In this document: piece by piece, positions 12,170-41,520 of the stretch
Layout: each line of letters starts with the position of its first letter
How positions within the stretch are numbered: the first letter of the stretch is position 1
Assembly: GCF_017876575.1 (NCBI RefSeq)
Contig: NZ_JAGIOE010000001.1
Span: 3,824,443 to 3,888,442, forward strand
DNA from: Paeniglutamicibacter psychrophenolicus
GTDB lineage: Bacteria > Actinomycetota > Actinomycetes > Actinomycetales > Micrococcaceae
Length of the DNA: 64,000 bases
Reading direction: 5' to 3'
The notes under the pieces: generated by a model
The model's database searches: none
What the model was told of the DNA's origin: nothing
The model's input: the letters and a program-made list of their open reading frames with translations, nothing else
Program-made: the position numbers and the translations under genes

Positions 12170-12463
12170 CTATGGACCGGAAACAAGCGTGATGGTCTGC
12201 AGCAGGCCAGGAACGAGCACCAGCCCCAGGACGCCCGAGGCGATGGCCCAGCCGAGTCGCCCCGCGCGGTGGGCGAGCCAGGCGCCCACCAGTCCAAGAA
12301 TCACCGGTACGACCATGAACCATGCAGGCAGCAGTGCCCCGGTTCCGTTCCAGTCCGGCAGCAACAACGTGATGGCCAGGGCGAGAAGCATCAGGATCCA
12401 GGTGGCCAGCGGCTTTCCATTGCGGCTGGAAACACCGTTGGCCTCTGGCTGCTGCGCGCTCAC
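12170..12463 (-). CDS. Small three-helix membrane protein
   Basis: A 97-residue protein starting with GTG at 12463, which overlaps the stop of the DUF952 gene (GTGA). After a polar N-terminus there are three hydrophobic helices (WILMLLALAITLLLP; WFMVVPVILGLVGAWLA; WAIASGVLGLVLVPGLLQTI). I cannot name a function. Coupling to the DUF952 gene suggests a bicistronic unit. Confidence 0.65.
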   Translation of the reverse strand: MSAQQPEANGVSSRNGKPLATWILMLLALAITLLLPDWNGTGALLPAWFMVVPVILGLVGAWLAHRAGRLGWAIASGVLGLVLVPGLLQTITLVSGP

Positions 12464-13741: not shown

Positions 13742-15664
13742 CTACTTCTTGTTCAGCTGCAATCCCACGAGCACCGGGTCGTGGTCCGAGGAACGGAACT
13801 GGTCCGGGGAGAACAGCTGGGCCACGTTGTAGTTGTAGCGGCTGTATTCGTACGCCACGGACTCGGTGGCGTTGATGTTCCAGATGGTCTTCCCCGTGAC
13901 GTGCTGCGCCACCTCGCTTGAACCAAGGATGTGATCCAGGGAGCCGGTGCGACCTGCGAAGAGGTAGCTGCGGGTGGGTGCACTGGCACCGAGGTCCACG
14001 TATCCGGCCTGGGTCAGGACCTGGATCGGTTCCTCGGCGGAGTACGAGTTGAAGTCCCCTGCCAGCAGCACCTTGTTGGTGTTGCGCTCCTTCTTCAGCC
14101 CCTCCGCGAACTTCACCAGGGCCTTTGCCTGCTCAACGCGCGCGGCGTTCCAGGCGCCCGCGCCGTCGCCGTTGTCGGCGTTGGCCGAACCGTCCTTCGG
14201 ATCCGAGCCCTTGGACTTGAAGTGGTTCGCCACGGCCAGGAAGCGGGTGTTGGAGTTTCCGCCGACGCGCTGGAAGGCCTGCGCCAAGGGGTCGCGTGCA
14301 TTGTCGAAGGCCGCGTCATCCAGGATGACCGATTCGTCGATCGGCTTCACTGCGTCGTTCTTGTAGATCATCGCGGTGCGGATGACGTCCTCGTCGGCCG
14401 GAACCGCGACGGGGCTTGGCACGTACGTCCACTGCTGCGCACCTGCAGCCCGGTTCAGCGCACCCACCAGGGTGGCCAGCGCGTCATCGCGGTCCAGCCC
14501 GAAGCGGGCGGAGTTCTCGATCTCCTCGAGGACCACGACGTCTGCGTCGAACTTGTTCAGCGCCGAGACGATCTTGGCCTGCTGCCGCTGGAGGTTGGCG
14601 TCGTTGGCGGCGCCGCGGGCATCGCACCCGCCGCGCACGGTGACCGGCTGGCCCGTGCGGTCGGTGTAGTAGGTGCAGCCGGAAAGCTGATCCCCGGTGG
14701 TGGTGAAGTAGTTCAGCACGTTGAAGCTGCCGACGCTGACGTTTCCACCGACATCCGCTGGTTCCGCGTCGTTGGCACGCGCGAAGGCTGCCGGGATGTC
14801 CGCATCCTCGGCACCGACAACCTGGCCCTGGGGCTGGAACCGCCACAGGTCGTAGCGGTAGTCCATGATGACCGGCCCGGTGAAGGTTGCCTCGGCACCG
14901 ACGCTGACGTGCTTGTCGGCCGAGATGTACGGAAGCGGCACGGACTTGTTGGAGCTCGCGCCGAGGAAGTTCAAGGTGGCGCCGTCATCCAGCAGCAGCG
15001 CGCGCTGCTCGTTCTCGGCTTCAAGGGCGAGTGCCTGGGCGCTGCCCGGGGCAAACGCATCGGTGGCTTGGCGCAGGGTGCGCTCCCCCGGCAGGATCGA
15101 GCTTGTTCCCTGGGCCAGGGTGAGTTCGCCGAATTGGTTCAGCGAGTAGTTGTCGGCGACCGTCCACTGCCCCTGCGGATCAACCAGCATTGATTCGAAG
15201 CGCTCGCGCTCGCTGTCCGCGGAGGGGATCTCGATGGCCAGCGGCTTGACCGCGTCGGCCGGCTCGGTGAGCACTGTGACGCCGGAGGCCGAGGCGCTGA
15301 TCTGGGTCAGCCCGAAGTACTCGCTGACCGTGCCGGTGACCTGCACGTGGTCGCCCACGGCAACCTCGGACACGCCGCCTGGCGAGAAGACGAAGATGCC
15401 CGAGCTGCCCTCGGGGGAAACCTCTGCGCCGCTGCCGGCGGTCTGGATGTAGAAGCCGCGGATACCGCCCTCGGCGTAGGCGCCGGTGACCACGGCGCGA
15501 ACCGTCACCTGCTGGCCGGCCATCTGGCTGGCGGAACCCGTGCCCTGGATGGCCTCGATGGAGGTCGTCTGGGCCTCGTCCGCCGTGGCCGGAGCCATGG
15601 CCCCCATCGCCATCGAGGCCGCCAAGGTCGCGGTGGCCAACGCAATTGTTGCGCGGTTCTTCAT
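13742..15664 (-). CDS. Secreted ExeM/NucH-type endonuclease
   Basis: A 640-residue exported nuclease. It has a Sec signal peptide ending AMAPATADE, an OB-fold-like lead domain (residues about 30-140, GTGSASQMAGQQVTVRAVV), and a C-terminal endonuclease/exonuclease/phosphatase domain. Catalytic motifs are VGSFNVLNYF, VVLEEIEN, FLAVANHFKSKG, LLAGDFNSY and SSDHDPVLVGL. Members degrade extracellular DNA for phosphate or nitrogen, or in biofilms. An AGGGGA ribosome site precedes the ATG. There is no cell-wall anchor, so the protein is probably released. Confidence 0.9.
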   Translation of the reverse strand: MKNRATIALATATLAASMAMGAMAPATADEAQTTSIEAIQGTGSASQMAGQQVTVRAVVTGAYAEGGIRGFYIQTAGSGAEVSPEGSSGIFVFSPGGVSEVAVGDHVQVTGTVSEYFGLTQISASASGVTVLTEPADAVKPLAIEIPSADSERERFESMLVDPQGQWTVADNYSLNQFGELTLAQGTSSILPGERTLRQATDAFAPGSAQALALEAENEQRALLLDDGATLNFLGASSNKSVPLPYISADKHVSVGAEATFTGPVIMDYRYDLWRFQPQGQVVGAEDADIPAAFARANDAEPADVGGNVSVGSFNVLNYFTTTGDQLSGCTYYTDRTGQPVTVRGGCDARGAANDANLQRQQAKIVSALNKFDADVVVLEEIENSARFGLDRDDALATLVGALNRAAGAQQWTYVPSPVAVPADEDVIRTAMIYKNDAVKPIDESVILDDAAFDNARDPLAQAFQRVGGNSNTRFLAVANHFKSKGSDPKDGSANADNGDGAGAWNAARVEQAKALVKFAEGLKKERNTNKVLLAGDFNSYSAEEPIQVLTQAGYVDLGASAPTRSYLFAGRTGSLDHILGSSEVAQHVTGKTIWNINATESVAYEYSRYNYNVAQLFSPDQFRSSDHDPVLVGLQLNKK

Positions 15665-16038
15665 GGATTTCCCCTAGCTCGTTGTTTTCGCCGTGGCGCT
15701 GTGGCGCACGGTGTGTAGCCCGAACAGATTCGATCATCCGCGGGTGAACCGAGCATGAATGGGGCCTGAACCCCGCCGGCCCCTCCGCTTGATGGCCATT
15801 GAACCATCCAAGTCCATGATGTGCGTCACGTCTAGGTGTTGAGCTCGCCAGGAAAGGGGAGCCGGATGGACCCAGCCATGTCGCCGTGTTACCGCAAGCG
15901 GGGATCGGCCCTTCATAAAGCGGTCGGAGAGGGGCCCCAAGGTCGCGAATATTACACTTTTCGGATACGGTGACAGATATCTGAAAAACGTAATAAGATA
16001 CCCTGTATACGAATTTTGGAATAAGGAGCATCGCTGTC
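15665..16038. other. Divergent promoter region between nuclease and hipBA
   Basis: No gene. The last 80 bp before hipB are AT-rich, with several GATA/TATC half-sites (GATACGG...AGATATC, AGATACCCTGTATAC) that could form the HipB operator. I could not settle a consensus. Confidence 0.4.
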
Positions 16039-16263
16039 GTGCATGGCACCATCGATTCAACCAAGGACCTGGGCAGAGCCGTTGTTGCCGCCCGCCTTGC
16101 CCACGGAATGACCCAGTCACAGCTGGCTGCCGCCCTGGGCCTGACGCAGCGCTATGTGTCGGAACTCGAAACCGGCAAATCGAGAACCCTCAGCCCGAAG
16201 TTGTTTGATCTGCTCGACCAGCTTGGAATCCAACTTAGCTTCAGGATCGCTACAGATGACTAA
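16039..16263 (+). CDS. hipB: HipB-like XRE antitoxin
   Basis: A 74-residue helix-turn-helix protein (GMTQSQLAAALGLTQRYVSELETGK) with the HipB-type ending LDQLGIQLSFRI. It begins with GTG, preceded by AAGGAG at good spacing. The stop overlaps the hipA start by 8 bp. Antitoxins of this family repress their own operon and bind HipA. Confidence 0.88.
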   Translation: MHGTIDSTKDLGRAVVAARLAHGMTQSQLAAALGLTQRYVSELETGKSRTLSPKLFDLLDQLGIQLSFRIATDD

Positions 16264-17521
16264 GCTCCCCGTGCACCTCTACGGCGTCCACATCGGCAAC
16301 ATCAGCGACAGGGGCCCGGGGCGAGTGGGGTTCCGCGCTACGAACGAGGCCATCAGGGCCTACGGGTTGGGGTCGACGATCCTCTCCATGGGGCTACCCC
16401 TGACAGTGTTGCCCAGTGACAATGACGCAGCAACATCCTTCTTTGGCGGCATCTTGCCCGAGGGCCGCGGCAGGACAAACCTGGCCCGCCAAGCCGGCGT
16501 ACAGAACACCGACCTCTTCGCAATGCTGGAATACGCAGGAAAAGACGTCCCAGGGGCAGTCATCATCGGCGAGTCCTCCGCAGCGGAGCCTGGTTCCCAT
16601 GAACCGGCCGATGAGCACGACATCGAAAAAATGTTGAACCGAACCTCGGATTTCTCCATGGGCGCGACAGGCGGCGGCGGATCGTTGCCGGGAATCCAAC
16701 CAAAGGCGGTACTGGCTTGGATAGATGGGTGGCACTTCGCCAGGAACGGCGCGATGTCCACACACATCCTCAAGCCGGTAGCCGTTGGTGAGGAATGGGG
16801 TGCGCACTGGGAAGCGTACTGCTTGTCGCTCGGCCGAAAGCTGGGCCTACTCAGTTTCGCTGCCACCGTTGAGACGTTCGGCGAAAGAACCGCGCTGGTG
16901 GTGGAGCGCTATGATCGCGTGACCGGCCCAAACGACTTCGAGCGCATCCATCAGGAAGATGCAGCGCAAGCCCTCGGGCTGCCATGGGACACGGACGCCA
17001 AATTTGAGTCTGTGGATCGCAGAGCAAGGCACCGGAGCATTGCCGACCTACTGCCCAAGGTCCGCAGGTTTGGCTCCGAGCGCGGCGACCGCCATGTGTT
17101 GCTTGCCTACACAACGTTCAACGTGGCGATTGGCAACACGGATGCCCACGCAAAGAACTTTTCGATCATCCACCTCACTACAGGAAAAGTTCGCCTTGCC
17201 CCGATGTACGACGTCACTGCGTTGGCCCTGGCTCCGAACGGCCAACAGAACCTTGCACTCAGGGTGAACGACATCGCCTACCAGCCGTCCGTCACGGCAG
17301 AGGACCTGGTGCTGGAGGGAATGCTCTGGGGGCTTCCGGAGTCGGCGGCAAAGGAAGTGGTGATGGGAACGCTGGAGGCGCTTCGGCGAGCCGTAGACGA
17401 GACAGACCCTGGCCAGGCAGATTCGATCGTGGGCAGGTACATCCGTATGCAGGTGGACAATTTGCTCGGCGGGAAAGCCGCCTGGGCATCCGAGGCACCT
17501 GCCTATCTGAGGTTGTTCTAG
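16256..17521 (+). CDS. hipA: HipA-like serine/threonine kinase toxin
   Basis: A 421-residue kinase with all HipA hallmarks: the PEGRGR segment near residue 70, the G-rich loop SLPGIQPKAVL, the ATP-site lysine in STHILKP, the FERIHQEDAAQALG motif, the catalytic NTDAHAKNFS and the metal-binding APMYDVTAL. In E. coli, HipA phosphorylates glutamyl-tRNA synthetase and induces persistence. Start ATG 16256 overlaps hipB. No disrupting mutation is visible, so unlike the other modules in this window this one seems complete. Confidence 0.9.
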   Translation: MTKLPVHLYGVHIGNISDRGPGRVGFRATNEAIRAYGLGSTILSMGLPLTVLPSDNDAATSFFGGILPEGRGRTNLARQAGVQNTDLFAMLEYAGKDVPGAVIIGESSAAEPGSHEPADEHDIEKMLNRTSDFSMGATGGGGSLPGIQPKAVLAWIDGWHFARNGAMSTHILKPVAVGEEWGAHWEAYCLSLGRKLGLLSFAATVETFGERTALVVERYDRVTGPNDFERIHQEDAAQALGLPWDTDAKFESVDRRARHRSIADLLPKVRRFGSERGDRHVLLAYTTFNVAIGNTDAHAKNFSIIHLTTGKVRLAPMYDVTALALAPNGQQNLALRVNDIAYQPSVTAEDLVLEGMLWGLPESAAKEVVMGTLEALRRAVDETDPGQADSIVGRYIRMQVDNLLGGKAAWASEAPAYLRLF

Positions 17522-17554
17522 CCCAGCCCCGATTGCAGAGACCGGCGCTGGCAG

Positions 17555-28654: not shown

Positions 28655-29047
28655 GACGCGCTTCTTCCCATCAGTAGGAATCACCGGCGGCGTCACCGCC
28701 GGCCTTTTGATGCAGCCAGTGTAGGCCGCATCCCGATGGCAGGAAACGGTTCCCGGGGTCCGGTACTCGCACCAGCACGGTCGATGCCGGCCTCTCGACG
28801 GACGGGTAGCCACATTCCGCACCCGGCAGCCGGCCGTGAACCGCTGGTTGGCTGTGCAGACCATGCTGCACCGGGTTTGCGCCCAGCCGGGTTCAGGCCC
28901 AACGTCTGGCTTGCCCGGACAGACAAGAACGTGGGGACCGCATTCGGGTGCGGTCCCAGGCGGTCGGCAGCTACCGTGTCGGTGAAGCAGCAGTGACGCT
29001 CTGGCTCAATATTTATACAATTGGCCAACGATGGAAGGTGCCCCGTC
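28655..29047. other. Intergenic stretch, no supported gene
   Basis: Contains a 7-bp GC hairpin (28684-28702) followed by CCTTTTG on the plus strand, resembling a weak terminator but without an upstream plus-strand gene. Otherwise nothing recognised. Confidence 0.5.
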
Positions 29048-29260
29048 ATGGCAGTCGCAAAGGTCGATGTGGATCTGAAGTTGCTCGAGCGAGCACGGGC
29101 ACTGACGGGCGGGAAGTCGGATCGCGTTGTCCTCGACCTTGCTTTGCGCCGCCTGATCGCTTCGAAGCAGAAGGGCTCGATGATTGGCGGCATCTCTGAC
29201 TTGAGGGCTCTGGCGTCCGAGCTCGGCTCGCCGGTCGTGGTTCCGCCTCGCACCCCATGA
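29048..29260 (+). CDS. vapB: VapB-type antitoxin
   Basis: A 70-residue antitoxin with a ribbon-helix-helix-like core (VDVDLKLLERARALTGGKSDRVVLDLALRRLI) and a flexible tail (GGISDLRALASELGSP). The ATG at 29048 is better than an upstream in-frame start. Its TGA overlaps the ATG of a broken vapC. Confidence 0.75.
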   Translation: MAVAKVDVDLKLLERARALTGGKSDRVVLDLALRRLIASKQKGSMIGGISDLRALASELGSPVVVPPRTP

Positions 29261-29342
29261 CGGACTACTTGGTCAACAACTCCGTCTCGGCTCGCGCGGT
29301 GATGCACGCATCACCGCGCGACTACGGCACCTAAACATCGGT
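29257..29342 (+). pseudogene. VapC toxin remnant
   Basis: The ATG overlaps the vapB stop. The sequence reads MTDYLVNNSVSAR, the start of a PIN-domain toxin, but with Asn replacing the first catalytic Asp (LVDNS). A one-base loss near 29313 shifts the continuation GDARITARLRHL into another frame. The remaining ~100 residues of a PIN domain are not present. Confidence 0.65.
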
Positions 29343-29440
29343 GGCTTCAAGTGGGATGTCACCGTGCTTGAAAACCGGGAGCCGTTGATCATGGACGACA
29401 TTGGCCGCTACCTTCTGGACCAATCGACGGGAATGCCCGC

Positions 29441-29743
29441 TCAGGCAACCTTCAACGGCGTGATCGCTGCGATCTGGTCGGCCACGCGATCTTCCGCGAG
29501 ATCAAGTTCGTACTGAGTCTGCAGGTTGAGCCAGAACTGCGGGGACACCCCGAAGTACCGCCCCAGACGCAGGGCAGTATCGGCCGTGATGGCCCGCTTC
29601 CCATGCACAATCTCGTTGATGCCCCTCGGCGGCACACCGATCGACACGGCGACCTTGTTCTGCGTGATCCCGAAGCCCTCGATGAAGTTCTTCATCAGGA
29701 CCTCACCCGGGTGGATCGGCGGGTAAAGCTTCTCGGCCATCAT
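29441..29743 (-). CDS. higA: HigA-type antitoxin
   Basis: A 100-residue XRE antitoxin with the full family signature: PIHPGEVLMKNFIEGFGITQNKVA, IGVPPRGINEIVHGKRAIT, ADTALRLGRYFGVSPQFWLNLQTQYEL. It represses and neutralises its HigB partner. A GAGGAGG ribosome site directly precedes tandem ATGs. The toxin gene upstream is broken. Confidence 0.85.
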   Translation of the reverse strand: MMAEKLYPPIHPGEVLMKNFIEGFGITQNKVAVSIGVPPRGINEIVHGKRAITADTALRLGRYFGVSPQFWLNLQTQYELDLAEDRVADQIAAITPLKVA

Positions 29744-29749
29744 CCCTCC

Positions 29750-30033
29750 TCAGTGGCAGTCGACGATTTGCACGTCGCCGGCTCCGGCATCCGTCCAGCG
29801 AAAGCAGGTCCGCCATTGATCGTTGATGCGGATGCTGCACTGGCCCGCTCGGTCACTCTTCAGTGCTTCCAAGCGATTCCCTGGCGGCACGCGCAATCGA
29901 TCCAGGATTGTCGCAGCATCCAACTGGCGGAGCTTGCGATTCGCGGTCTTACGGAATCGCGGATCAAATCCTTTGCCGGTTCACAACGCCGTGACGCGCT
30001 CGGCGTCACGGTCGACTAAGGAACCGATCGCAC
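29750..30033 (-). pseudogene. HigB toxin pseudogene
   Basis: Reading leftwards, the frame gives VDRDAERVTAL, a TGA, then TGKGFDPRFRKTANRKLRQLDAA, LRVPPGNRLEALKSDRAGQ and INDQWRTCFRW to a stop 7 bp before higA. This is a nearly complete 93-residue HigB ribosome-dependent endoribonuclease. It is inactivated by the in-frame TGA at about codon 17 and a frameshift in the first few codons (GTG 30033, RSV then out of frame). Confidence 0.8.
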
Positions 30034-30064
30034 CACCAGTGTGTAACGCAGTGCGTCAATGACG

Positions 30065-30098
30065 CTAGACGTTGCACCGGAATTCCACCACGTTCCGC
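30065..30098. repeat. Left island boundary: ychF 3'-end-like sequence
   Basis: On the minus strand this reads RNVVEFRCNV-stop, the C-terminus typical of actinobacterial YchF. It matches the right boundary in direct orientation at 21 of 28 positions. It also matches it as an inverted repeat at 27 of 33 positions, the first 17 (TAGACGTTGCACCGGAA) perfectly. Confidence 0.7.
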
Positions 30099-30301
30099 AG
30101 CTGAATAACCTTAGGTGGTATGTGCATGGGATATGAGGCGAAGGAGCTGCGCGCGGACGTTCGGATCTGCCGATGTCCGGATGTTTTGTGCCGGCACCCC
30201 TAACGCAAGGCGCCACGCCCCCAGCGGGTATGCGCGGCAACCTTCCATGCGGGCGGGTTTTGACTTCCGCCAGGTGCATCTGCGCGCTCGCAGGTGTTCG
30301 A

Positions 30302-31459
30302 CTACTGCGGATCATCTTTGCTCAGTATTTGACTGGCAGGCGCGGGCCATGCTTCTCCGGTCTTGAGAAGAACACGCGCCTCGAAGTGGAATTTCGTACC
30401 TTCGACTTGGTCCATTTTCATCGCCTGCGACTCAATCCTGACCGCATCCGCAACGACTTCAGACGTAAGCCAAAGAACCTGACCGATGGTCAGGAATGGT
30501 CCGAAGGATTCGGTCTCGAATCCGATGATGGGTTCTCCGGGCGACGGAGCCTCGATATTGAATACCGCGACCTGCCATGGCTCGCCGAACAGGACCAGCT
30601 CGCCGAAAATGTCGCCCATAGTAAGGTCTAGCAGCCGATCCACCTCGCCGAACGCATCGGCATAGACACGCGCCGGACCCGAAAGCGACTCGACAACCTC
30701 GTTCATGGCGTAGGAGCGGTATTCGGCACGCGGTAGAGCGCGATTCGGCTCGTGGCTATCTAAGGCCTCGGCTGACAGCCGCCCCTTAAGTTCGTGCCGG
30801 GCCGCTCGTAACGCCTCCTTCGCGTCGTCGTCTAAATCAGACATCGCACTGTTAAAGTCGGACCACACCTGGGACTTCGTCAGCGCCATACTCACATCAC
30901 GGGCAGCCTGGTCAAGTTGTGAAGCACCCCTCGCATCCACGCCGAGCAGGTCCGGCACTGAAGGCGGCGCACCCCGCTGATTCAGTCCCGAAGCGAAGTC
31001 CTCCTTGAACCAAATGTAGCGCGGTGTCATCTCCCTGGTCGTCAATGGGGTGCTGGGCGCCAACTGCGGCGCACGAAGAAGCGGGTACCCCGCCAGTGAA
31101 GAGCGCAACCAACCCAAGGTAATCCTGTGCGCGCCCTCCAACTTCGCAGCCATCTGTAACCACTTGTCCAACTCATCTCGGTCGACCACAGGCATCCCGA
31201 ACCCAGCGACGAGAGGCTGATCAAGCAGCGCCGGGATATGGCTGGCATACTTTAGAGGCTTCATCACCATGCCAGCGCGAAGTTCGAGGTGCCGCACGAG
31301 TGCAGAGATGCCGACCGCCTTGTTTCCTCGTTCATCCAACGGGCGGTTCCGGGGCAGCGTTGCCGCGATCTCCCGGACCATGGGAATTTGCGACCAGACT
31401 TCGGCCAACCTCCAGATGGCTAACCACAGTTCAGGGGAGGTGTCTTTGCCAGAGTTCAC
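30302..31459 (-). CDS. Partner protein of the nuclease-NACHT NTPase (unknown)
   Basis: A 385-residue soluble protein with no motif I recognise. GTG 31459 is preferred because GGAAGG lies eight bases upstream; a TTG at 31477 is the alternative. The sequence is mixed alpha/beta with segments RITLGWLRSSLAGYPLL, PRYIWFKEDFASGLNQRG and a C-terminal strand-rich part (WQVAVFNIEAPSPGEPIIGF; FHFEARVLLKTGE). The gene starts 29 bp after the NTPase stop and is co-directional, so it is probably in the same operon and needed for the same function, as a sensor, regulator or target protein. Confidence 0.65.
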   Translation of the reverse strand: MNSGKDTSPELWLAIWRLAEVWSQIPMVREIAATLPRNRPLDERGNKAVGISALVRHLELRAGMVMKPLKYASHIPALLDQPLVAGFGMPVVDRDELDKWLQMAAKLEGAHRITLGWLRSSLAGYPLLRAPQLAPSTPLTTREMTPRYIWFKEDFASGLNQRGAPPSVPDLLGVDARGASQLDQAARDVSMALTKSQVWSDFNSAMSDLDDDAKEALRAARHELKGRLSAEALDSHEPNRALPRAEYRSYAMNEVVESLSGPARVYADAFGEVDRLLDLTMGDIFGELVLFGEPWQVAVFNIEAPSPGEPIIGFETESFGPFLTIGQVLWLTSEVVADAVRIESQAMKMDQVEGTKFHFEARVLLKTGEAWPAPASQILSKDDPQ

Positions 31460-31487
31460 GTGATGCGCCTTCCGCAAGTCGTTTGTT

Positions 31488-34127
31488 TCACAGCCAGTGG
31501 TTTCGTGTCAGTTTGGTTACCGCCTCACCGATAGCTTTAGCAGCGGTGACTTCCGGTGACGTTGACACCCGGGACACCACGTCGGTCGACGCGGAATATG
31601 CACCGGTTCGCTCCTCAGGTGGCGGGGAGGAGCCAGTCGCAGCGGCTAAATCGACGGCTATTGTGTGCCGATACCTGACCGGCCATCCGTCTAGGCCAAA
31701 GACGCGCCGCTGACGTTCGTAGACCACGCCGGTCATGCCGAGTGGGCCAATGGTCTCCTGCAATCGGTTGACCGCGCCGGGTGGGGCAACATCAGCCAGG
31801 ACTGCAGCCAGGGCAGCGATCACCTCGCGGCAGTGTGCGCTCAGCTGGTCGCAGGCCTCTTGACACGACCGAGGGGCTCGTGGCCGCAACCGGCGATCGC
31901 GACGTAGCCGCTGCTTGAGGATGAGTCGCCACAGTCGCACCGCGACCGCAGTAGGCCCATCGCTGTCCTCGGCTACCACCGTCGGCCCCTCGAAGACGGT
32001 CGGGGCCTGCGCCGGGTCGACCCACATTGTGGCTCCAGTTCCTGCCTGAGCCATCGTCTTCCCGTTCGCCGTCCGCCACATCGTCACCTCGACGTCCGTG
32101 TCATCGGGAAGGACAGCGTTCAGTAAAGCGGCCACGATTCCGGGCGCCTGCTCGCTGATAGTGTTGTGGTCCGAATCACTGACCCGCACCAAGGAAAAAG
32201 GCAATTGCTTGGCCACTGCCAGTACCTCTGAGTCGTTGAGCATCCGCATCTGGGAGGAAAACCATAAACGGTTCTCGTCATTTTCGAGCAAGGCCTCTGG
32301 CAGGTGGACCAGCCCGTCAGCGTGTGCACGAGCGGCGAAGTAGTCGGCAAAGGAGTCGTGAACAGGCACTCGGAGCGTAGTGCGCCCAATCCCGGTGATC
32401 ACGGCGTTGACCAGACCGCTTCGAGCAACCGCCTCGCGAATGGCGGCGACATCGGTCGCAACACCACGCTCCTCAAGGAACACTGCGGCTCCGGCGACCA
32501 TGCGTTCCCACTCCAGCGGGTTTGCGTACCGCCGTCCTTCATCTAGAAGCTCAGCGAACACGACACCGAGCACAGCGACCGCCAGGCGCACGTCACCGCC
32601 ATTGGCGCGGTCAGACATTCGCGAGACGGTCAACTCGTACACGGATGCCCGGTCGGTGAACGGGACTCCACCGGCCACCAGTTGTAGCGCCAGCTCGAGC
32701 AGCATCGGGTTGCCGGCGGCATCGCCCAACGCATGTTCAACCTGCGCCAACGCCTCGTAGCAGCGAGGAGAAAAGTCCTCCATGTCGCCTCCACTGGCTC
32801 CCGGCAGAGCTGCTGGTTTCCCACCGTCGGAGGTAACAGGCGAAGAGATGCCGCGCTCCGGTTCGCCCAGCACTTTCGCGGTCAAGGTGAGCCTCTCCAG
32901 ACGACCGAACGCACTCGGGTATAGCCGTTGCACCGTCGCTGAGGCTGGGAAAACGGCCGCGCACACCCCCTCGTCGCGCCCGACCCCCACCACCCGTGCC
33001 CCGCGGACCCCGGCGAGGTGTATGCGAAGATCTGCGGCGAGCTCGGACCTGACCTGCTGCGGAACCTCAGAAATACCATCAAGGATCACGGTCACGCTCG
33101 GATCCCCTAGTACTTGGCGGCCCACCCGGCGCGACAACGTACGGCCCACAGCAGTACCCACAGCATCGGCCACCAACCGGTCTAACCGTTGCGCTATGTA
33201 CGCCTCAGCATGACACATGACAACCTTCTCACCGGCACAAGCAGCACCGCGGCGCCACAAACGCGACAGAGTGGACTTGCCCGAACCGGTCCGTCCAGTC
33301 ATCAGGAGTGGTCCGCTAACAAGAGCGAGGTCCTCAAGCCGAATGGATGGGCTCTGCCAGCTGGCCCTCAACGTCGGCACAACAAGGTCATCGATTTGTT
33401 CTGACGCCACCGCAGTCACGTACTCCCCGACCAAAGAACCAGTCCAGCGATCAGTTTCGGCAAGTCGAGCGATGTCGCCGACAATGGAGACAATTTCGTC
33501 TCTCGCGATGAAGCGGTCATCCAAGTCCGGCAGACCTGAGCGAGTAGAGATGACCCGAAACAGCTCGTTGACCCGGTCGGCAGCGTCCTTCTCGGCGTCC
33601 GGATGAGTGGGGCCAGTTTCAAGCAGGGCTTTGACCTCCATCTCGGCAGAGAAGAGCAATGCCTCGACTGAGCCCGGTTCCGAAACAATTCGCGCCCGCC
33701 CCATGACCACGCATAAAGGGTCTTCGACGTCGACCCCTAGAAGCTCCGCGACCGTATCATACTTGCCATCGCGAGCTTCATCCAACGCAGCAGCAACGGC
33801 GCAGCCGGAAGGCCCGAGAGCGCCGTCCGTGAGCAAAGAGAATTCCGAATCTGCACTCAACGGCAGTTCAGCCCATCTGTGAACGATCGCGAGCAGCTCG
33901 GCCCGCGCCCACGTGTGAGGCTGAAGACGAGACTTCATCTGCAATCCGCGCACCACGAACGGTCCGGCCCCGCCCGGGTCATCCGCGATGACTTCCAGGT
34001 CTAGGGCGTCAACGGCCCCCTCGACACGGATACCGAGCACCGAGTTGTCAGCAGCTACGTCTAGAGCGATAAGAATCGCTTGGCAGTGCTGGTAGTTGAT
34101 GCCGCGGACCGTATCGACGCCGCTCAT
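31488..34127 (-). CDS. NACHT-type STAND NTPase with N-terminal DUF4297-like nuclease domain
   Basis: An 879-residue protein with the build of bacterial NLR-like defence proteins. Residues 1-110 fit a PD-(D/E)xK nuclease of the DUF4297/Cap4 type: INYQHCQAI, then E36-x3-D40-x2-D43, the Q63-x-K65 pair (LQMKS), W73, and FSLLTDG. The NTPase part has a Walker A GRTGSGKST (278-286), Walker B VTVILDGISEVP (345-356), NPMLLELALQL (473-483) and the NACHT-typical HDSFADYFAA (590-599). The C-terminal 280 residues have no recognised repeats and may be the sensor. By analogy to Avs and bNACHT proteins it may sense a phage product and then cut DNA. Family assignment rests on motifs only. Confidence 0.75.
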   Translation of the reverse strand: MSGVDTVRGINYQHCQAILIALDVAADNSVLGIRVEGAVDALDLEVIADDPGGAGPFVVRGLQMKSRLQPHTWARAELLAIVHRWAELPLSADSEFSLLTDGALGPSGCAVAAALDEARDGKYDTVAELLGVDVEDPLCVVMGRARIVSEPGSVEALLFSAEMEVKALLETGPTHPDAEKDAADRVNELFRVISTRSGLPDLDDRFIARDEIVSIVGDIARLAETDRWTGSLVGEYVTAVASEQIDDLVVPTLRASWQSPSIRLEDLALVSGPLLMTGRTGSGKSTLSRLWRRGAACAGEKVVMCHAEAYIAQRLDRLVADAVGTAVGRTLSRRVGRQVLGDPSVTVILDGISEVPQQVRSELAADLRIHLAGVRGARVVGVGRDEGVCAAVFPASATVQRLYPSAFGRLERLTLTAKVLGEPERGISSPVTSDGGKPAALPGASGGDMEDFSPRCYEALAQVEHALGDAAGNPMLLELALQLVAGGVPFTDRASVYELTVSRMSDRANGGDVRLAVAVLGVVFAELLDEGRRYANPLEWERMVAGAAVFLEERGVATDVAAIREAVARSGLVNAVITGIGRTTLRVPVHDSFADYFAARAHADGLVHLPEALLENDENRLWFSSQMRMLNDSEVLAVAKQLPFSLVRVSDSDHNTISEQAPGIVAALLNAVLPDDTDVEVTMWRTANGKTMAQAGTGATMWVDPAQAPTVFEGPTVVAEDSDGPTAVAVRLWRLILKQRLRRDRRLRPRAPRSCQEACDQLSAHCREVIAALAAVLADVAPPGAVNRLQETIGPLGMTGVVYERQRRVFGLDGWPVRYRHTIAVDLAAATGSSPPPEERTGAYSASTDVVSRVSTSPEVTAAKAIGEAVTKLTRNHWL

Positions 34128-34482
34128 AGGCAGTCATTCCCCCTTAACAGGCACGGCGCGAAGGTACGAATCGTGTCTATTCACACCACTATCAGATCAT
34201 ACTGGAGGGATAAATCTCGGCCATTTACTATTCGATGACCTACGTTCCGCACTGGCATCGACTGACATCTGTGTCGTGCCGTTAAAGACGCTCTCAGTTG
34301 TCGCCTGTCCATCCTTTTTAAGTCTCACGACGCGCTCGTTGCCGCCGGGTCTCCGCGACGAACGCTAGGCACGTCTCTCGCCTCCACTCGCCGGTCGGTC
34401 GGTGCCTTAGACGAGGCTCATGCCAGGTCGAAGATTGTCCTCGATCGCGACAGTTAGCGGGGGCGCTTTACCAGCTACTCGG
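34128..34482. other. Upstream region of the NTPase gene, no supported gene
   Basis: About 350 bp. The first 80 bp next to the NTPase start are comparatively AT-rich (near CAGATCATACTGGAGGGATAAA) and probably hold its promoter. No hairpin or repeat noticed. Confidence 0.45.
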
Positions 34483-34854
34483 CTACGCCGAAATCACTTG
34501 GATCAACGGTTCCGTCCGCGACGAGCAAACAGGCTGTCGGGCCAACTCGTGGTGTTCGCCGAACAGCACGTGGCCATCGAAAACCTTCACGAAGAGCTGC
34601 ACGACCATCAACGTGGATTCCGGGGACCACGTGAAGGCCGCAGCGACGTCCGCAGCACGGCACGTTCGTCGCTGCTCCGGATCGTGTCCCTTATGGGCGA
34701 GGACGCGCCGCGACAGAACTCTCGACAAGTCTGGGATCGGCCGGTACCCCGAGGCGAAATACAAAACGCCTGGCCATGGGATGCACCTACGGTGCTTCAC
34801 GGGGACCCGCCGGGCCCTCTCGGATCGCTCCTTCACACCGAATTGAGAGACCAT
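34483..34854 (-). CDS. Doubtful open frame at the island's right end
   Basis: A minus-strand frame of about 123 residues from ATG 34854 with plausible composition (GVLYFASGYRPIPDLSRVLSRRVLAHKGHDPE; STLMVVQLFVKVFDGHVLFGEHHELARQ). I cannot match it to integrases or other families, there is no good ribosome site, and the opposite strand is equally open. It could be a degraded gene of the island. Confidence 0.25.
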   Translation of the reverse strand: MVSQFGVKERSERARRVPVKHRRCIPWPGVLYFASGYRPIPDLSRVLSRRVLAHKGHDPEQRRTCRAADVAAAFTWSPESTLMVVQLFVKVFDGHVLFGEHHELARQPVCSSRTEPLIQVISA

Positions 34855-34973
34855 GGACAGCACCGGACCGCGCAAATGCGCCTCTGGTTCTGCCACCAGC
34901 CGTTTGACCGGAACGCGGCAGGGCGCTTTTCGACAGGAGGGCAAATCACAAAACCACTGGTCAGACGACACCT

Positions 34974-35019
34974 CTAAACGTTGAAGCGGAACTCCACGGA
35001 GTTCCGGTGCAACGTCTAA
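34974..35019. repeat. Right island boundary: two overlapping ychF 3'-end-like sequences
   Basis: Minus strand: SVEFRFNV then TAG (34976-34974). Plus strand: RNSTEFRCNV then TAA (35017-35019). The two share a central palindrome of 9-bp arms (CGGAACTCC / GGAGTTCCG). The minus-strand reading is nearly the canonical YchF ending; the plus-strand one is the mirror of the left boundary. Confidence 0.65.
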
Positions 35020-35092
35020 TGGGCCCAAGTCCAATACCCGGATTGCCACGCGGATCAATGGCCGGCAGCAGTCCGCGGCGAGACCCTAGTCT

Positions 35093-35305
35093 TCAGCCGG
35101 GCTGCGCACCCTCTCCCCTGGGGTCGAAGAGATCGTCGATCCTGCATCCAAAAACCTCGGCCAGGCGGAAGGCCAACGGCAAGGACGGGTCGAACCGTCC
35201 GCGCTCGATGGAGATCACCGTTTGCCGGGAGACGCCGAGCTCATCGGCGAGTCGTTGCTGTGACCAGCCGCGCTCCTGCCGGCGTTCGGGAAGGGAGTTT
35301 TTCAC
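35093..35305 (-). CDS. Small XRE-family transcriptional regulator
   Basis: A 70-residue repressor-type protein starting with GTG: SLPERRQERGWSQQRLADELGVSRQTVISIERG is the helix-turn-helix, followed by PSLPLAFRLAEVFGCRIDDLFDP. This compact class (YozG/HigA-like) often accompanies a small membrane protein. Its start is 2 bp after the stop of the upstream membrane gene, with GAGGGG as ribosome site inside that gene. It likely binds the repeats at 35804-35835. Confidence 0.88.
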   Translation of the reverse strand: MKNSLPERRQERGWSQQRLADELGVSRQTVISIERGRFDPSLPLAFRLAEVFGCRIDDLFDPRGEGAQPG

Positions 35306-35307
35306 CC

Positions 35308-35781
35308 TTAGCCCCTCTTCTTCGCCATGAGGTAGCGCACGAAGGTGCTGAAGAAGCCGACCACGATGACCCCGATGAGCGCCCAGAGGACGTCGAGCTC
35401 GTACCCCGTGATGGAGAGGATCGCCAGGACCAAACCGGTCAGCATGATGGTGTCGCGGAATGCTCCGGCCATGGCGGCGTCCAACCATGTCGATTCGATC
35501 GATTCATCCGGCTTGTCGATCGCTCCCCGCAGGCTCGACCGGTCCACAATGATCGCCCAGACCAGGCCCACGAACCCCCAGGACATCACCAGGGCGAACA
35601 CCCCGGCGACGGGCAGGGCATGTTCGCCGTCTGCCACACCTGTCCAGAGGGTGATTGCACCGACGCCGACGGCCAGCAGCAGCCCGACCGGGATGGCGAC
35701 GGCCATGGCGGGCAGCCGGCCTTCGGCGAAGCGGATGCGGCCCCAACGCGTGCGGCTGTCGGTTCTGGTTTCACTGCTCAT
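35308..35781 (-). CDS. Four-helix membrane protein co-transcribed with the XRE regulator
   Basis: A 157-residue membrane protein with four hydrophobic segments (MAVAIPVGLLLAVGVGAITLW; VAGVFALVMSWGFVGLVWAII; FRDTIMLTGLVLAILSI; VLWALIGVIVVGFFSTFV) and a basic end (MAKKRG). The start ATG 35781 has AAGGAG five bases upstream. Such membrane/XRE pairs are common in actinobacteria; the membrane partner's role is unknown. Confidence 0.75.
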   Translation of the reverse strand: MSSETRTDSRTRWGRIRFAEGRLPAMAVAIPVGLLLAVGVGAITLWTGVADGEHALPVAGVFALVMSWGFVGLVWAIIVDRSSLRGAIDKPDESIESTWLDAAMAGAFRDTIMLTGLVLAILSITGYELDVLWALIGVIVVGFFSTFVRYLMAKKRG

Positions 35782-35803
35782 GGACACTCCTTAAGTAAAG
35801 CGT

Positions 35804-35835
35804 GCTTGACTTGTAAAACAAGCTTGACATGTAAA
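35804..35835 (-). promoter_or_regulatory. Tandem operator-like repeats upstream of the membrane/XRE operon
   Basis: Two 14-bp direct repeats, TTTACATGTCAAGC and TTTACAAGTCAAGC on the minus strand, begin 18 bp apart in an AT-rich stretch 23-54 bp upstream of the start codon. A partial third copy (TTTAC) lies nearer the gene. They are the natural candidate site for autoregulation by the XRE protein. Confidence 0.6.
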
Positions 35836-36180
35836 GCTCGTTTTACGCAAGCCCTCGGCCCCGAAGCAGGAAGCAAGGAGCATGACTCGACGTTCGGTCA
35901 GCCGCATGGACGGCCGGCCCGCAACATGGGCCTGCAGCTCAGCGCATGGCCCCATCGCGTTCCGCGGGCGCAGGCGAACGCACCCCGGGCAGTGTCATCA
36001 GGTCACCGGCGACTTCCATGACGGCGGACCCGGGAACCGCGTGGAAGGCAGAGGACTGCTCCCGCGGCGTCCGCCGGAACCGATGCCACCAACCCTTCCC
36101 CGGCCCTTGCACCCGTGCCTACCATGGGGCCATCACGGTTGGCGTCAACCGGGCGCACCGCAAAAAGCAGGAGAAGAGCC
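35836..36180. other. Intergenic stretch, no supported gene
   Basis: Holds the promoter of the E1 genes and nothing else I can support; open frames continue into shadows of the E1 alpha gene. Confidence 0.5.
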
Positions 36181-37188
36181 ATGACGGTTCAATCTGCCCT
36201 GTCCGCAACGGACAGACTCAATCTATTGCGCATGATGGTGTTGATCCGCACCTTCGAGGAAGCCATCTTGCGCGAATACCATGCCGACAAGTCCCCGGGC
36301 TTCGACATCGGGGCCGGGCTGGTGCCCGGCGAAATGCACCTGGCCGCCGGCCAGGAACCTGTCGCGGCGGGGATCGGCGCACACCTGTCACTTGGCGACG
36401 CCATGACGGCAACGCACCGCCCGCACCACCTGGCCATCGCGCACGGCGTGGACATGCGCAAGATGGCCGCGGAGATCTTTGGACGGGAGACCGGGCTGGG
36501 CCGGGGCCGCGGCGGGCACATGCACCTCTTTGATCCCGAGGTCCATTTCTCCTGCTCCGGGATCGTTGCCGAGGGGTTGCCTCCGGCGCTCGGGCAGGCC
36601 CTTGCCTTCCAACGTGCAGGGACCGATAAGGTGGCGGTCGCCGTGGCAGGGGAAGGCGCCGCAAACTCGGGCGCGTTCCACGAGTCACTGAACCTCGCCG
36701 CACTGTGGAAGTTGCCGGTGGTCTTCGTGATCGAGGACAACGACTGGGGAATTTCGGTCCCGCGCTCGGCCTCGACCTCGGTGCCGTCCAACGCGGTCCG
36801 CGCCGCCTCCTATGGGATCCCGGGAACCCGCGTGGAGGACAACGCCGTCGAAGATATCTGGGCAGCTGTCGGCGAGGCGGTCCGCCGGGCCAGGGCCGGC
36901 GAGGGACCCAGCCTGATCGAGGTGCACACCCTGCGCCTGTGGGGCCACTTCGAGGGCGATGCCCAGGGCTACCGCGGCGATCTGGAGGGCGTGCCGGGGC
37001 GCGACCCGATCCCCACCTACCAAAAGCACCTCACCGACGCCGGAATCCTCGACGACGGAGCATTCACCGAGATGGGGGCCGCGGCCTCCGCCACGGTCGA
37101 GGAAGCGATCGCCTTTGCGAAGTCCTCGCCCCTGCCCGATCCCGCCGACGCCTTGAAGTATGTATTCACCGAAGGAGCACAGTCATGA
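36181..37188 (+). CDS. 2-oxoacid (acetoin/pyruvate-type) dehydrogenase E1 alpha subunit
   Basis: A 335-residue thiamine-diphosphate E1 alpha subunit. The cofactor motif runs from GEGAANSGAFHESLN to VFVIEDNDWGISVP, and GLGRGRGGHMHLFDPE and PHHLAIAHGVD are the substrate-channel motifs. It decarboxylates a 2-oxoacid or cleaves acetoin and transfers the acyl group to a lipoyl domain. ATG 36181 has AGGAGA upstream. It overlaps the beta gene by 4 bp. The sequence is closer in form to AcoA-type E1 than to the homodimeric AceE used for pyruvate by actinobacteria. Confidence 0.88.
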   Translation: MTVQSALSATDRLNLLRMMVLIRTFEEAILREYHADKSPGFDIGAGLVPGEMHLAAGQEPVAAGIGAHLSLGDAMTATHRPHHLAIAHGVDMRKMAAEIFGRETGLGRGRGGHMHLFDPEVHFSCSGIVAEGLPPALGQALAFQRAGTDKVAVAVAGEGAANSGAFHESLNLAALWKLPVVFVIEDNDWGISVPRSASTSVPSNAVRAASYGIPGTRVEDNAVEDIWAAVGEAVRRARAGEGPSLIEVHTLRLWGHFEGDAQGYRGDLEGVPGRDPIPTYQKHLTDAGILDDGAFTEMGAAASATVEEAIAFAKSSPLPDPADALKYVFTEGAQS

Positions 37189-38979: not shown

Positions 38980-41520
38980 ATGAGCCGCAAAGCCACACCA
39001 CCGACCCGTTCCAACAACAAGCCGAATTTCGGTCTCCCCTGGATTTCCATCCTTCTCGGGGCTGCCACCGTGGTTTTCGGAACCACCGGGCTCGTGAACA
39101 TCGCCACCCAACCGGATTCCGAGGTCCGGATCGTCATTGAGGGCCAGCAGCCGTGGAATATCTCCCGGGAAACGGTCGAAGCCGCACTGGACCAACCCGT
39201 CGCTTCCTGGCAACCGCTCACACTCACGGTCACCGACCGGACGCTGAGTCTCGAGGAACAGCAGGGAAACCTCGCCCCGGGCACCGATATCCTGCTGAGC
39301 ACCAAGCTCCCGAAAGCCGCAAAGATCGATGTATACGACGGCTCGATCAGGCGAGCCCAGGCCCGCGACAAGGTGGCAATCCGCCCCTTCTTCGACGATC
39401 CGGCCCAAAACCTCGCCGTCGGCCAGGATATCCACGACGCATACCAGGCCAATGTCGGAATCGGCCACGGGCCGCTGGCGGTCATCGCCGCGGCACAAGA
39501 AGCATCCCTGCACCTCGACCACGGGTCTCCGCCTTCGCCCTGGCCCTGGATCATGGCCACCGCGCTGGGCCTGGCGCTGACGGCGTTCGCCCTCTCCAAG
39601 GCACAACGCCGCCGTTCCCGCTGGGGAGCCCGTTTCCGCCGGCTCACCGCCGCGCAGCGCCAACTTGCAGGCGTGGTCCTGGAGCTCGAAGCCCTCGAGG
39701 TCACCTACCTCGCCATCGACCCGGAGCAACGCCCCCGGGGGTTCACTGCCGCTTGGACCAAGGTGCGCGATGCATCGCTGGACTTGGCGCGCACCGAGGA
39801 AAAGGTCGTCGCAGCGGTGCATGCGCGCGGCAGCGGCATGACACCGGAAACCGCCCGAAAGCTCGAAAGTTTCGAATCCCTGGTGTCGCAATTGGCCGCA
39901 TCGGCCGACGCCGTGATGGGTGCCGGTGCCGTCATTGGACGCTTCCGCGGCGGCGAAAACACCTTCCAGCGGATGACCGCGCCGCTGGCATTCGCCACCA
40001 GGGAACTGTTGGCGCGCCTGCGCGCCGCCCCCGCCGGCGCGATCGATCCGCGGGCCGTCACCGGCCTTGAATCCGCATTGGACGCCCTGCTTGAGGCAAG
40101 CACCGGCAAGACGGGCGGGTCCGAACATGCCGTGCGCGCCTGGGACCAAGCGGAGCGTGCACTCCGGCGCCAGGCGCATGCGCTCTCCCGGAAGTTGGGC
40201 CGCCCGCGGAGGTTGCGCCGCATGCTTCGGCGACGCCCTTCGGCGGCCCCGAGGCCCGCCGAAGACCTGAGCGTGTTGCGTACGAGCCTTGGCTTGACCC
40301 CCCAGGGTTCGCGGCTGTCCCTGAATGCGGTGGACGAGGTGAACGCCATGGCCCGTGAAGCGTTCGGCAGGCTCCCTGAATTCGATGACGCAGCGGAACC
40401 GGCACGCCGCAAGACCCCGTTGCATCCCTCACTCCGCACGGGCATCCGCCAGGGCACCAAGGTGCTCGCCGGAATCGCCCTGGTGCTGGCCTCGGCCATG
40501 CAAAGCTCGATGGTCATCATCACTATCGAAGACGTGGCCGAAGCCGTGCCGACCGGAAACCGGCCATTGCAGGCATTGCGCTTTGAGCCCGACGACAGCA
40601 AGTTCGACGTGGAAGAAATCCGCCACGGCCTCCCGGTCGATTTCACCGAAGACCTGGACGTGACGGTGGTTGCCCGGGACGCTGAGGATGAGCTGCAGCT
40701 CACCCTGGACCCCGAGGTCCGAGCGAAGATTTACAACCCCTCCGACCCTTTCGCGCATACCCGCTTCGACCCCAAGCTGCTGGTGGAATCCATGTGGACG
40801 ATCAAGGCCCAATACCCCCACCTGGTTGACGAGGGCAGCGGGGAACTGCTCCCCGGACAGGTGGTGCTGCCTGTGTGGTTTTTTGATGATGGGTCCACCA
40901 CGGCGCCCGCGTGGTTGACCTCGGCGGTCGCAACCGGCGAAACCTCCGCGCTAGGCAGGTTCAACTGGAATACCAACAGTTTCTCCCCCGATATGTCACC
41001 CGAGTGGGCGGTGTCCAACACTCTGGATCGCCTGGCGAGGGTTCTGCCGCTGAACGACCATCGGGAGCTGGACTCCAACCTGGATCCCCTCTTCTGGTTA
41101 CTGCTCCCCACCAATGGGCTTGTCCTGGTCATCGGGTACCAGGTGCTTCGCTACGGCGGCAGCATGTCCATGCGCCTGGGCCGCTTCGGCAAGGGCTCCG
41201 CCAGGTTGCGCAACGTGCGCCGGGAACTTGAGGCGCTGACCCTGGGGTTGGACGATTCGCGGCTCAATGCGGTGTTCATGTTTGATCGCGGGTCGGTCCC
41301 GCTGGCGGCCTCCGGCGACCAAAGACTCTTCGAAAGTGCGCTGGCCGTGGCCTGGCGCATGGCCGAAGAACTCGCCGCCCGCCCGCTGGCCCAGCGCTTC
41401 GGCCCGGATTACACGGCGCAGATCCACAGGCTCGAATACCTGGTCTCGGTGCTCTCCGTGCGCGATGCCGATGTTGCGGGGCGCGCCCGGGCCCTGCTCG
41501 GGGCCATGCGCGAGGCCTGA
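38980..41520 (+). CDS. DUF5129-family membrane protein
   Basis: An 846-residue protein. Near the N-terminus a membrane helix (ISILLGAATVVFGTTGLVNIA) anchors an extracellular domain containing VRIVIEGQQPWNISRETVEAAL and IRPFFDDPAQNL. A second helix (WIMATALGLALTAFAL, about residue 195) leads to a long, coiled-coil-rich cytoplasmic part (200-490). Another helix (VLAGIALVLASAMQSSMVII), a second external region and a last helix (FWLLLPTNGLVLVIGYQVL, about residue 705) follow. The order matches actinobacterial DUF5129 proteins of unknown function. Monocistronic. Confidence 0.7.
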   Translation: MSRKATPPTRSNNKPNFGLPWISILLGAATVVFGTTGLVNIATQPDSEVRIVIEGQQPWNISRETVEAALDQPVASWQPLTLTVTDRTLSLEEQQGNLAPGTDILLSTKLPKAAKIDVYDGSIRRAQARDKVAIRPFFDDPAQNLAVGQDIHDAYQANVGIGHGPLAVIAAAQEASLHLDHGSPPSPWPWIMATALGLALTAFALSKAQRRRSRWGARFRRLTAAQRQLAGVVLELEALEVTYLAIDPEQRPRGFTAAWTKVRDASLDLARTEEKVVAAVHARGSGMTPETARKLESFESLVSQLAASADAVMGAGAVIGRFRGGENTFQRMTAPLAFATRELLARLRAAPAGAIDPRAVTGLESALDALLEASTGKTGGSEHAVRAWDQAERALRRQAHALSRKLGRPRRLRRMLRRRPSAAPRPAEDLSVLRTSLGLTPQGSRLSLNAVDEVNAMAREAFGRLPEFDDAAEPARRKTPLHPSLRTGIRQGTKVLAGIALVLASAMQSSMVIITIEDVAEAVPTGNRPLQALRFEPDDSKFDVEEIRHGLPVDFTEDLDVTVVARDAEDELQLTLDPEVRAKIYNPSDPFAHTRFDPKLLVESMWTIKAQYPHLVDEGSGELLPGQVVLPVWFFDDGSTTAPAWLTSAVATGETSALGRFNWNTNSFSPDMSPEWAVSNTLDRLARVLPLNDHRELDSNLDPLFWLLLPTNGLVLVIGYQVLRYGGSMSMRLGRFGKGSARLRNVRRELEALTLGLDDSRLNAVFMFDRGSVPLAASGDQRLFESALAVAWRMAEELAARPLAQRFGPDYTAQIHRLEYLVSVLSVRDADVAGRARALLGAMREA

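Follow-up and report, generated by a model that had tools for sequence, protein, structure and literature searches.

Genes A and B lie side by side on the minus strand of a 64,000-nucleotide (nt) stretch of DNA ("the window") from the genome of Paeniglutamicibacter psychrophenolicus (4.9 Mb, two contigs), and very probably form one functional unit. With the same high confidence, the product of A combines a Cap4/LmuA-type PD-(D/E)xK nuclease with a STAND core that is NACHT-like but divergent. B encodes its partner, a protein of a family that appears new. The domain build, the conserved catalytic residues, the fixed pairing, the parallel divergence of the two genes, their mobility and the defence genes beside their relatives are observed; we infer phage defence, oligomerisation and DNA cutting by A. 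Phage defence would be the most likely job of the pair, because of the defence-gene neighbourhood and the analogy with bNACHT25 and bNACHT32 as portrayed in PMC12169576. That A and B form a two-gene NLR-like (STAND/NACHT) abortive-infection system is the explanation we favour, with about even confidence.

Features of the pair (window coordinates):
31488 to 34127, minus strand: gene A, 879 amino acids (aa), with a predicted N-terminal nuclease, a central NACHT-like STAND NTPase and a family-specific C-terminal region
33813 to 34127, minus strand: predicted Cap4/LmuA-type nuclease core of A, residues 1–105; E36, D40, D43, Q63 and K65 invariant in 9/9 homologues
32868 to 33437, minus strand: NACHT-like NTPase of A, residues 231–420; Walker A with K284, Walker B D350–E354, and R384
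32331 to 32360, minus strand: HDSFADYFAA motif of A, residues 590–599; HDSFADY invariant in 9/9
31491 to 32312, minus strand: C-terminal region of A, residues 606–879, without a relative outside the A family among the loci compared
30302 to 31459, minus strand: gene B, 385 aa, unrecognised family; helical at 9–291, beta domain at 295–363

A predicted nuclease fused to a NACHT-like NTPase

The coordinates, lengths and motifs given for A and B in the initial annotation hold. The stop codon of A and the GTG start codon of B are 28 nt apart; GTG gives the 385-aa product, and a longer in-frame reading begins at TTG 31477. Among four Micrococcaceae copies, the ratio of nonsynonymous to synonymous substitution rates (dN/dS) is 0.21 for A and 0.28 for B. 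Since both frames are under purifying selection, A and B are not chance open reading frames (ORFs). Within A, the same copies gave 0.77 for a loop (421–455) and 0.11 for the helical part that follows it (456–605). An Rfam search of 28800–36200 up to an E of 1 returned no match to an RNA component.

We assign A its two domains because of its invariant residues, fold matches and nuclease profiles taken together. First, the window copy carries E36, D40, D43, Q63 and K65, together with the motifs GRTGSGKST, ILDGISEVP and HDSFADYFAA. Across a nine-row alignment of A, the invariant positions are RGI..Q, E36, D40, D43, E45, Q63, K65, K284, D350, G351, S353, E354, R384 and HDSFADY, and they include the two lysines, K65 and K284, that the initial annotation had singled out for mutation. 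A has a P-loop NTPase with a Walker A, a Walker B and a motif behind them, in which K284, D350, E354, R384 and HDSFADY are invariant in all nine. HDSFADYFAA resembles the H-x-S-F-x-E-F-F-A-A motif of NLR winged-helix regions, and we take it to be of the NACHT type.

Second, an AlphaFold model of A, built on 8 of the 9 alignment rows, has a mean predicted local distance difference test score (pLDDT) of 79.9 and a predicted template modelling score (pTM) of 0.74. Its N-terminus runs helix-strand-strand-strand-helix-strand, the order of a PD-(D/E)xK core, with strands at 30–37, 42–49 and 56–65; D43 begins the second strand, and Q63 and K65 end the third. The PD-(D/E)xK fold anticipated by the initial annotation is supported by this strand order, the placement of D43, Q63 and K65 and a match to Cap4, in a weaker sense, as all are read from the whole-chain model. 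Foldseek matched the model to 37 PDB chains at an E of 0.001 or better. The best was Avs3 (E of 1.5e-10), but with template modelling (TM) scores of 0.19/0.09 and a root-mean-square deviation (rmsd) of 31.5. The model also matched NLRC4 (1.3e-6), the NLRP3 NACHT domain (TM 0.55 by target length), NOD2 and Cap4 (2.1e-5); generic AAA+ proteins such as Cdc6 and ORC were among the matches too, more weakly.

Third, the PADLOC model of LmuA matches the nuclease part of 8 of the 9 members (best 5e-8, window copy 0.023), HamA matches two and DUF4297 one. Pfam Cap4_nuclease weakly matches 5/9 (best 0.02), the window copy not among them, and the best PDB-sequence match of the nuclease part is an AAA-family ATPase that shares an RG..YQ start (E of 0.11). 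Taken alone, window A matches only P-loop families, below the cut-offs, in Pfam, PADLOC and NCBIfam, and gives a weak P-loop match to NtrC (0.0045) among PDB sequences, where a profile of whole A finds only general P-loop proteins. The nuclease-NACHT build read earlier from the motifs is thus supported by invariant residues, fold matches and the LmuA profile, with the Pfam NACHT model below its cut-off.

Pairing with B, a protein of unrecognised family

Nine intact A genes were found, the window's included, down to 29% identity, and B lies directly downstream in all nine. Chance adjacency is therefore rejected, and the suspected pairing is conserved in other genomes. A pattern scan of species genomes identified three close copies, in Pseudarthrobacter sp. 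HLT1-5 (L002), Arthrobacter cryoconiti (L003) and Sinomonas gamaensis (L004); in each, A is 85–91% and B 76–81% identical to the window, and B follows 28 nt downstream. The Kineococcus plasmid pKRAD01 carries A (36.2%) and B (35.9%), as do four Actinomycetes genomes (G528, G394, G569 and G1108). The gap between A and B is 28–31 nt in the five closest loci; in the remaining four, depending on the start codon chosen, A and B either overlap or are separated by no more than ~30 nt. B is missing beside two A-like pieces. One is a fragment, on a 3.6-kb contig of G302; the other, in G1165, is decayed and frame-broken. Searches of these two whole genomes for B gave no match. The G1165 piece (L045, 7954–9198) is a relative of the nuclease and linker of A, in two frames.

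The pair is rare and, in the genomes searched, confined to Actinomycetes; other phyla were reached only via plasmid, phage and viral collections and the short-pattern scan of species genomes. With B as the query, matches occurred in 3 of 295 genomes of the family, 2 of 396 of the phylum and 2 of 295 of one genus. These are five distinct genomes, and A is present in all five; the samples of the A and B searches overlap one another. With A as the query, 5 of 394 class genomes matched, one being the G302 fragment. The order of G394 gave 20 matches in 245 genomes, of which 2 are full-length, 1 is the G1165 piece and 17 lie around the NTPase core only. At a stricter limit of 1e-15, A matched 1/35 genomes in the order of G569 and 1/22 in the order of G528, both already known. 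We therefore do not accept a phage origin: the pair had no match in phage records, nor had A and three of the nine B proteins in PHROGs; viral contigs likewise gave none, in scans that are insensitive because each used two short peptide patterns.

A and B have diverged in parallel. Their distances correlate with r = 0.986 over 36 non-independent pairs, and their trees have 4 of 6 splits in common, including all the well-supported ones; the unshared splits have support of 0.72–0.89. Among the loci compared, nothing apart from the pair itself came up to the inclusion threshold for profiles of B and of A 606–879.

The initial annotation could match B to nothing known, and no library searched recognises it: window B has no family match in Pfam, PADLOC or NCBIfam, and none among PDB sequences. 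An AlphaFold model of B, again built on eight of nine rows, has a pLDDT of 75.9 and a pTM of 0.79, with helices at 9–291 and beta strands at 295–363. The stretch 127–160 is modelled poorly yet contains the invariant residues P131, Q132, T141, W150 and A156. Foldseek found no PDB match for the model at an E of 0.001 or better (best 0.17), only short matches to baseplate and HerA barrels. Against viral models, there was one nameless match at 2.1e-4 with an rmsd of 20.6, followed by tail proteins from 0.018.

Several candidate identities for B were rejected. Profile-profile alignment shows no similarity between B and the C-terminus of A (probability 0.2 on a scale to 100), so B is not a split-off of that region. 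The resemblance to RicA/YmcA is too weak and covers a short helical stretch (sequence E of 0.028; structure E of 1.8, TM 0.50 by target length). Mimicry of a phage tail-tip protein was discarded, as the viral models match at an E of 0.028 and worse over 66–97 columns of a generic beta domain. Weak Pfam matches of B relatives (TrbL_3 at 0.0026, ExoU_mid_dom at 0.011 and four others) each occur in 1/9 only. Finally, the Kineococcus plasmid encodes a PHP-domain protein with a weak B-like match (E of 0.0016 against 385 ORFs), which was gone with the nine-member profile.

Possible roles of the pair

In the mechanism we propose, resting A would be held closed around its nucleotide. Upon infection, B would recognise a trigger, or license A, by docking on the family-specific C-terminal region of A (residues 606–879), the proposed docking or sensing region. 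A would then swap its nucleotide and oligomerise via its NACHT-like core. The oligomer would bring the Cap4/LmuA-type nuclease domains together, leading to DNA cutting that would stop the infection, probably by killing the cell. We infer a sensing or licensing role for B with about even confidence. In its favour, neither the C-terminus of A nor B has relatives outside the pair among the loci compared, and B is not itself part of that region. Only ~270 residues follow the HDSFADY motif in A, leaving little room for a long repeat-type sensor.

B may instead be an inhibitor or immunity protein that, in the manner of an antitoxin, silences the nuclease of A in uninfected cells, with the C-terminal region of A doing the sensing. 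The gene order is fixed with short gaps or overlaps, the predicted nuclease is intact, and of the A-like pieces without B one is a fragment and the other has decayed, which would follow if A could not be maintained on its own. However, B comes after A, whereas antitoxin genes more often come first; B, at 385 aa, is large and has two structural parts; and NACHT proteins, in the known cases, inhibit themselves without a partner. We regard inhibition as unlikely on balance.

A more doubtful proposal is that, once A is triggered, B acts alongside the nuclease as a further effector or as a subunit that handles DNA. The C-terminal beta domain of B matches the HerA barrel over short stretches, with a probability of up to 0.98; HerA partners the DUF4297 nuclease, whose profile matches the nuclease domain of one A protein in nine. 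Those HerA matches, however, have an E of 0.39 or worse over 65–86 columns, and no catalytic motif was recognised in B by alignment or by a Pfam scan of its relatives. Most improbable is a role other than phage defence, in which the pair stabilises a mobile cassette or controls the genes of the element: it does move as a repeat-bounded insert and on a plasmid, and STAND proteins also act as regulators, but the other cargo of its relatives includes restriction and TIR/SLATT genes and the nuclease residues are intact in 9/9.

Several observations weigh against a NACHT-type defence system in which B is the sensor. The Pfam NACHT model has no match in window A, and two of the nine relatives match it below the cut-off (20.4 and 17.5 versus 26.7 bits). 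The Walker B of A reads DG-SE, where DG-DE is usual in NACHT. The dN/dS of B barely exceeds that of A, and there is no diversifying selection on B. No recognised defence gene stands beside the pair in the window itself, whose flanks were scanned in part. Lastly, according to PMC12169576, some single-gene bNACHT proteins also have short C-termini, such that a sensor in trans is not required.

Comparison with known systems places the pair near several of them. In the same account, bNACHT25 and bNACHT32 (bNACHT clade 6) have an N-terminal PD-(D/E)XK DNase before the NACHT core, defend, and degrade DNA upon infection (PMC12169576). They are likened to A by this description, and differ in being single proteins with an NCH1 region, dependence on host DnaJ and no partner gene. 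Avs3 and Avs4 are STAND proteins with a Cap4-type nuclease, and Avs3 is the best PDB match of A. By contrast, Avs3 has ~2000 residues in its PDB entry, with a long sensor, whereas A has 879 aa and no such sensor; no Avs family in PADLOC matched A up to an E of 1. Cap4 of CBASS and LmuA of Lamassu resemble A in the nuclease domain, but in A a NACHT-like core takes the place of SAVED, and neither a cyclase nor an SMC-like partner was recognised. Hachiman (HamAB) also has two genes, and its HamA profiles match two of the nine A nuclease domains; HamB is a helicase, however, and B has no helicase match.

Partner genes also occur in Avs1, with a separate metallo-beta-lactamase (MBL)-fold nuclease (PMC12799240), and in the CARD-NLR systems, which are operons (PMC13236601). 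Both encode an NLR-like NTPase with partner genes. Those partners are an MBL-fold nuclease, a trypsin-like protease or CARD/protease proteins, whereas searches of Pfam, NCBIfam and PADLOC matched B to none of these families, and A has its nuclease fused to the NTPase. The initial annotation held that a fixed partner would be new. The B family does appear new, but a partner gene as such is not, because these multi-gene NLR-like systems are known. A partner like B is not described for Avs1, for CARD-NLR or in PMC7159879, in the parts of the three texts that were accessible (PMC12799240, PMC13236601). The A-B pair was not found named in print by a literature search that lay outside most subscription papers.

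The repeat-bounded insert and its surroundings

The A-B unit is part of a repeat-bounded insert of ~4.9 kb, from 30069 to 34978, larger than the 30302–34127 initially delimited. Its further features are:
30069 to 30097, plus strand: ychF-end repeat on the B side of the insert, direct copy
34978 to 35006, plus strand: ychF-end repeat on the A side, direct copy, also in an imperfect hairpin (34975–35018)
34128 to 34434, minus strand: stretch upstream of A, the probable promoter region; full length common to L002 only, its first ~80–140 nt also to L003 and L004

With up to three mismatches, the repeat occurs four times in the source genome, and a reversed control zero times. The other two copies bound ~6.2 kb (6027–6055 and 12198–12226 at L077). 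The first is formed by the 3' end of what we take to be ychF, a gene whose product ends GDVVEFRFNV. In another genome of the genus (G050), window position 30088 joins 34979, an empty site. In 14 other same-genus genomes, the flanks were found but A and B were not, apart from one 46-base match. DNA common with the close copies covers 30066–34434 at most and 30290–34210 in all three. The flanks beyond it are unmatched, except for a 120-base piece of a HigA gene in L004.

ychF stands just upstream of the cassette in L003; in L004 it is also upstream, but with an AAA gene between. Further repeat-like copies follow (L003, 9574–17753; L004, 16114–19035). At the relatives' loci up to seven mismatches were allowed, and the L002 copy has seven. 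Another same-genus genome (G111) has a GmrSD gene at the insert's chromosomal site; GmrSD-plus-RAMA genes of the same kind lie at L068 4719–6824 (the G111 insertion site) and at L002 7553–9742, directly upstream of A-B. Allowing up to two mismatches, 200 of the 245 family genomes have the repeat, against 0 for a reversed control among the rows shown. In several genomes same-strand copies cluster kilobases apart, for example five in 263564–279710 of G004 and five in 392324–404173 of G095. No integrase was recognised inside the insert by ORF inspection or a scan of the window proteins. G528 differs, with an integrase-family gene and two tRNA genes 1–3 kb behind B. The clustered repeats look as if cargo lacking an integrase had accumulated in tandem behind ychF.

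Ten neighbour proteins of L002, L003 and L004, picked by inspection and not at random, were compared with profile libraries at 0.001; eight match Pfam and seven match PADLOC. L002 has GmrSD with RAMA and type I hsdM, hsdS and hsdR; L003 has TIR, ThsB-type TIR and SLATT; L004 has AAA_15/AAA_21 (best in PADLOC NsnB, AriA and Old). For the five distant A-B loci, the view came from annotation or lists of ORFs, with a few scans against Pfam. In L003, two ychF-end repeats enclose a TIR_2 gene and then a ThsB-type TIR gene directly followed by a SLATT_3 plus SLATT_1 gene (14118–17540), perhaps a further defence module of two genes. Beside the insert in the window are VapB-like (29048–29260, plus strand) and HigA-like (29441–29743, minus strand) antitoxin genes, with no toxin partner noticed; at the same place in G111, a VapB-like gene precedes a 137-aa ORF, and there are two HigA-like genes. 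Farther away, 38980–41520 (plus strand) encodes an 846-aa predicted protein with no Pfam match at an E of 0.001.

Our boldest interpretation, which we hold to be less likely than not, is that of a split bacterial NLR: A would hold the effector and the NACHT switch, and B, of a new family, would sense in trans by docking on the private C-terminus of A. The pair would spread in a cassette without an integrase, among many cargoes that ychF-end repeats delimit in Micrococcaceae. For bacterial NLR-like proteins, PMC12169576 describes sensor, switch and effector in one chain. A split would divide labour in the way of NAIP/NLRC4 in animals and sensor/helper NLRs in plants; should B prove to be the sensor, bacteria have arrived at an NLR layout in two parts, as animals and plants have. 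With its fixed partner, kept over ~70% sequence divergence, the system is compact, two genes in ~4 kb, and simple deletions might be enough to separate sensing from killing. The ychF-end repeats, for their part, mark where one could look for more cargo genes of Actinomycetes.

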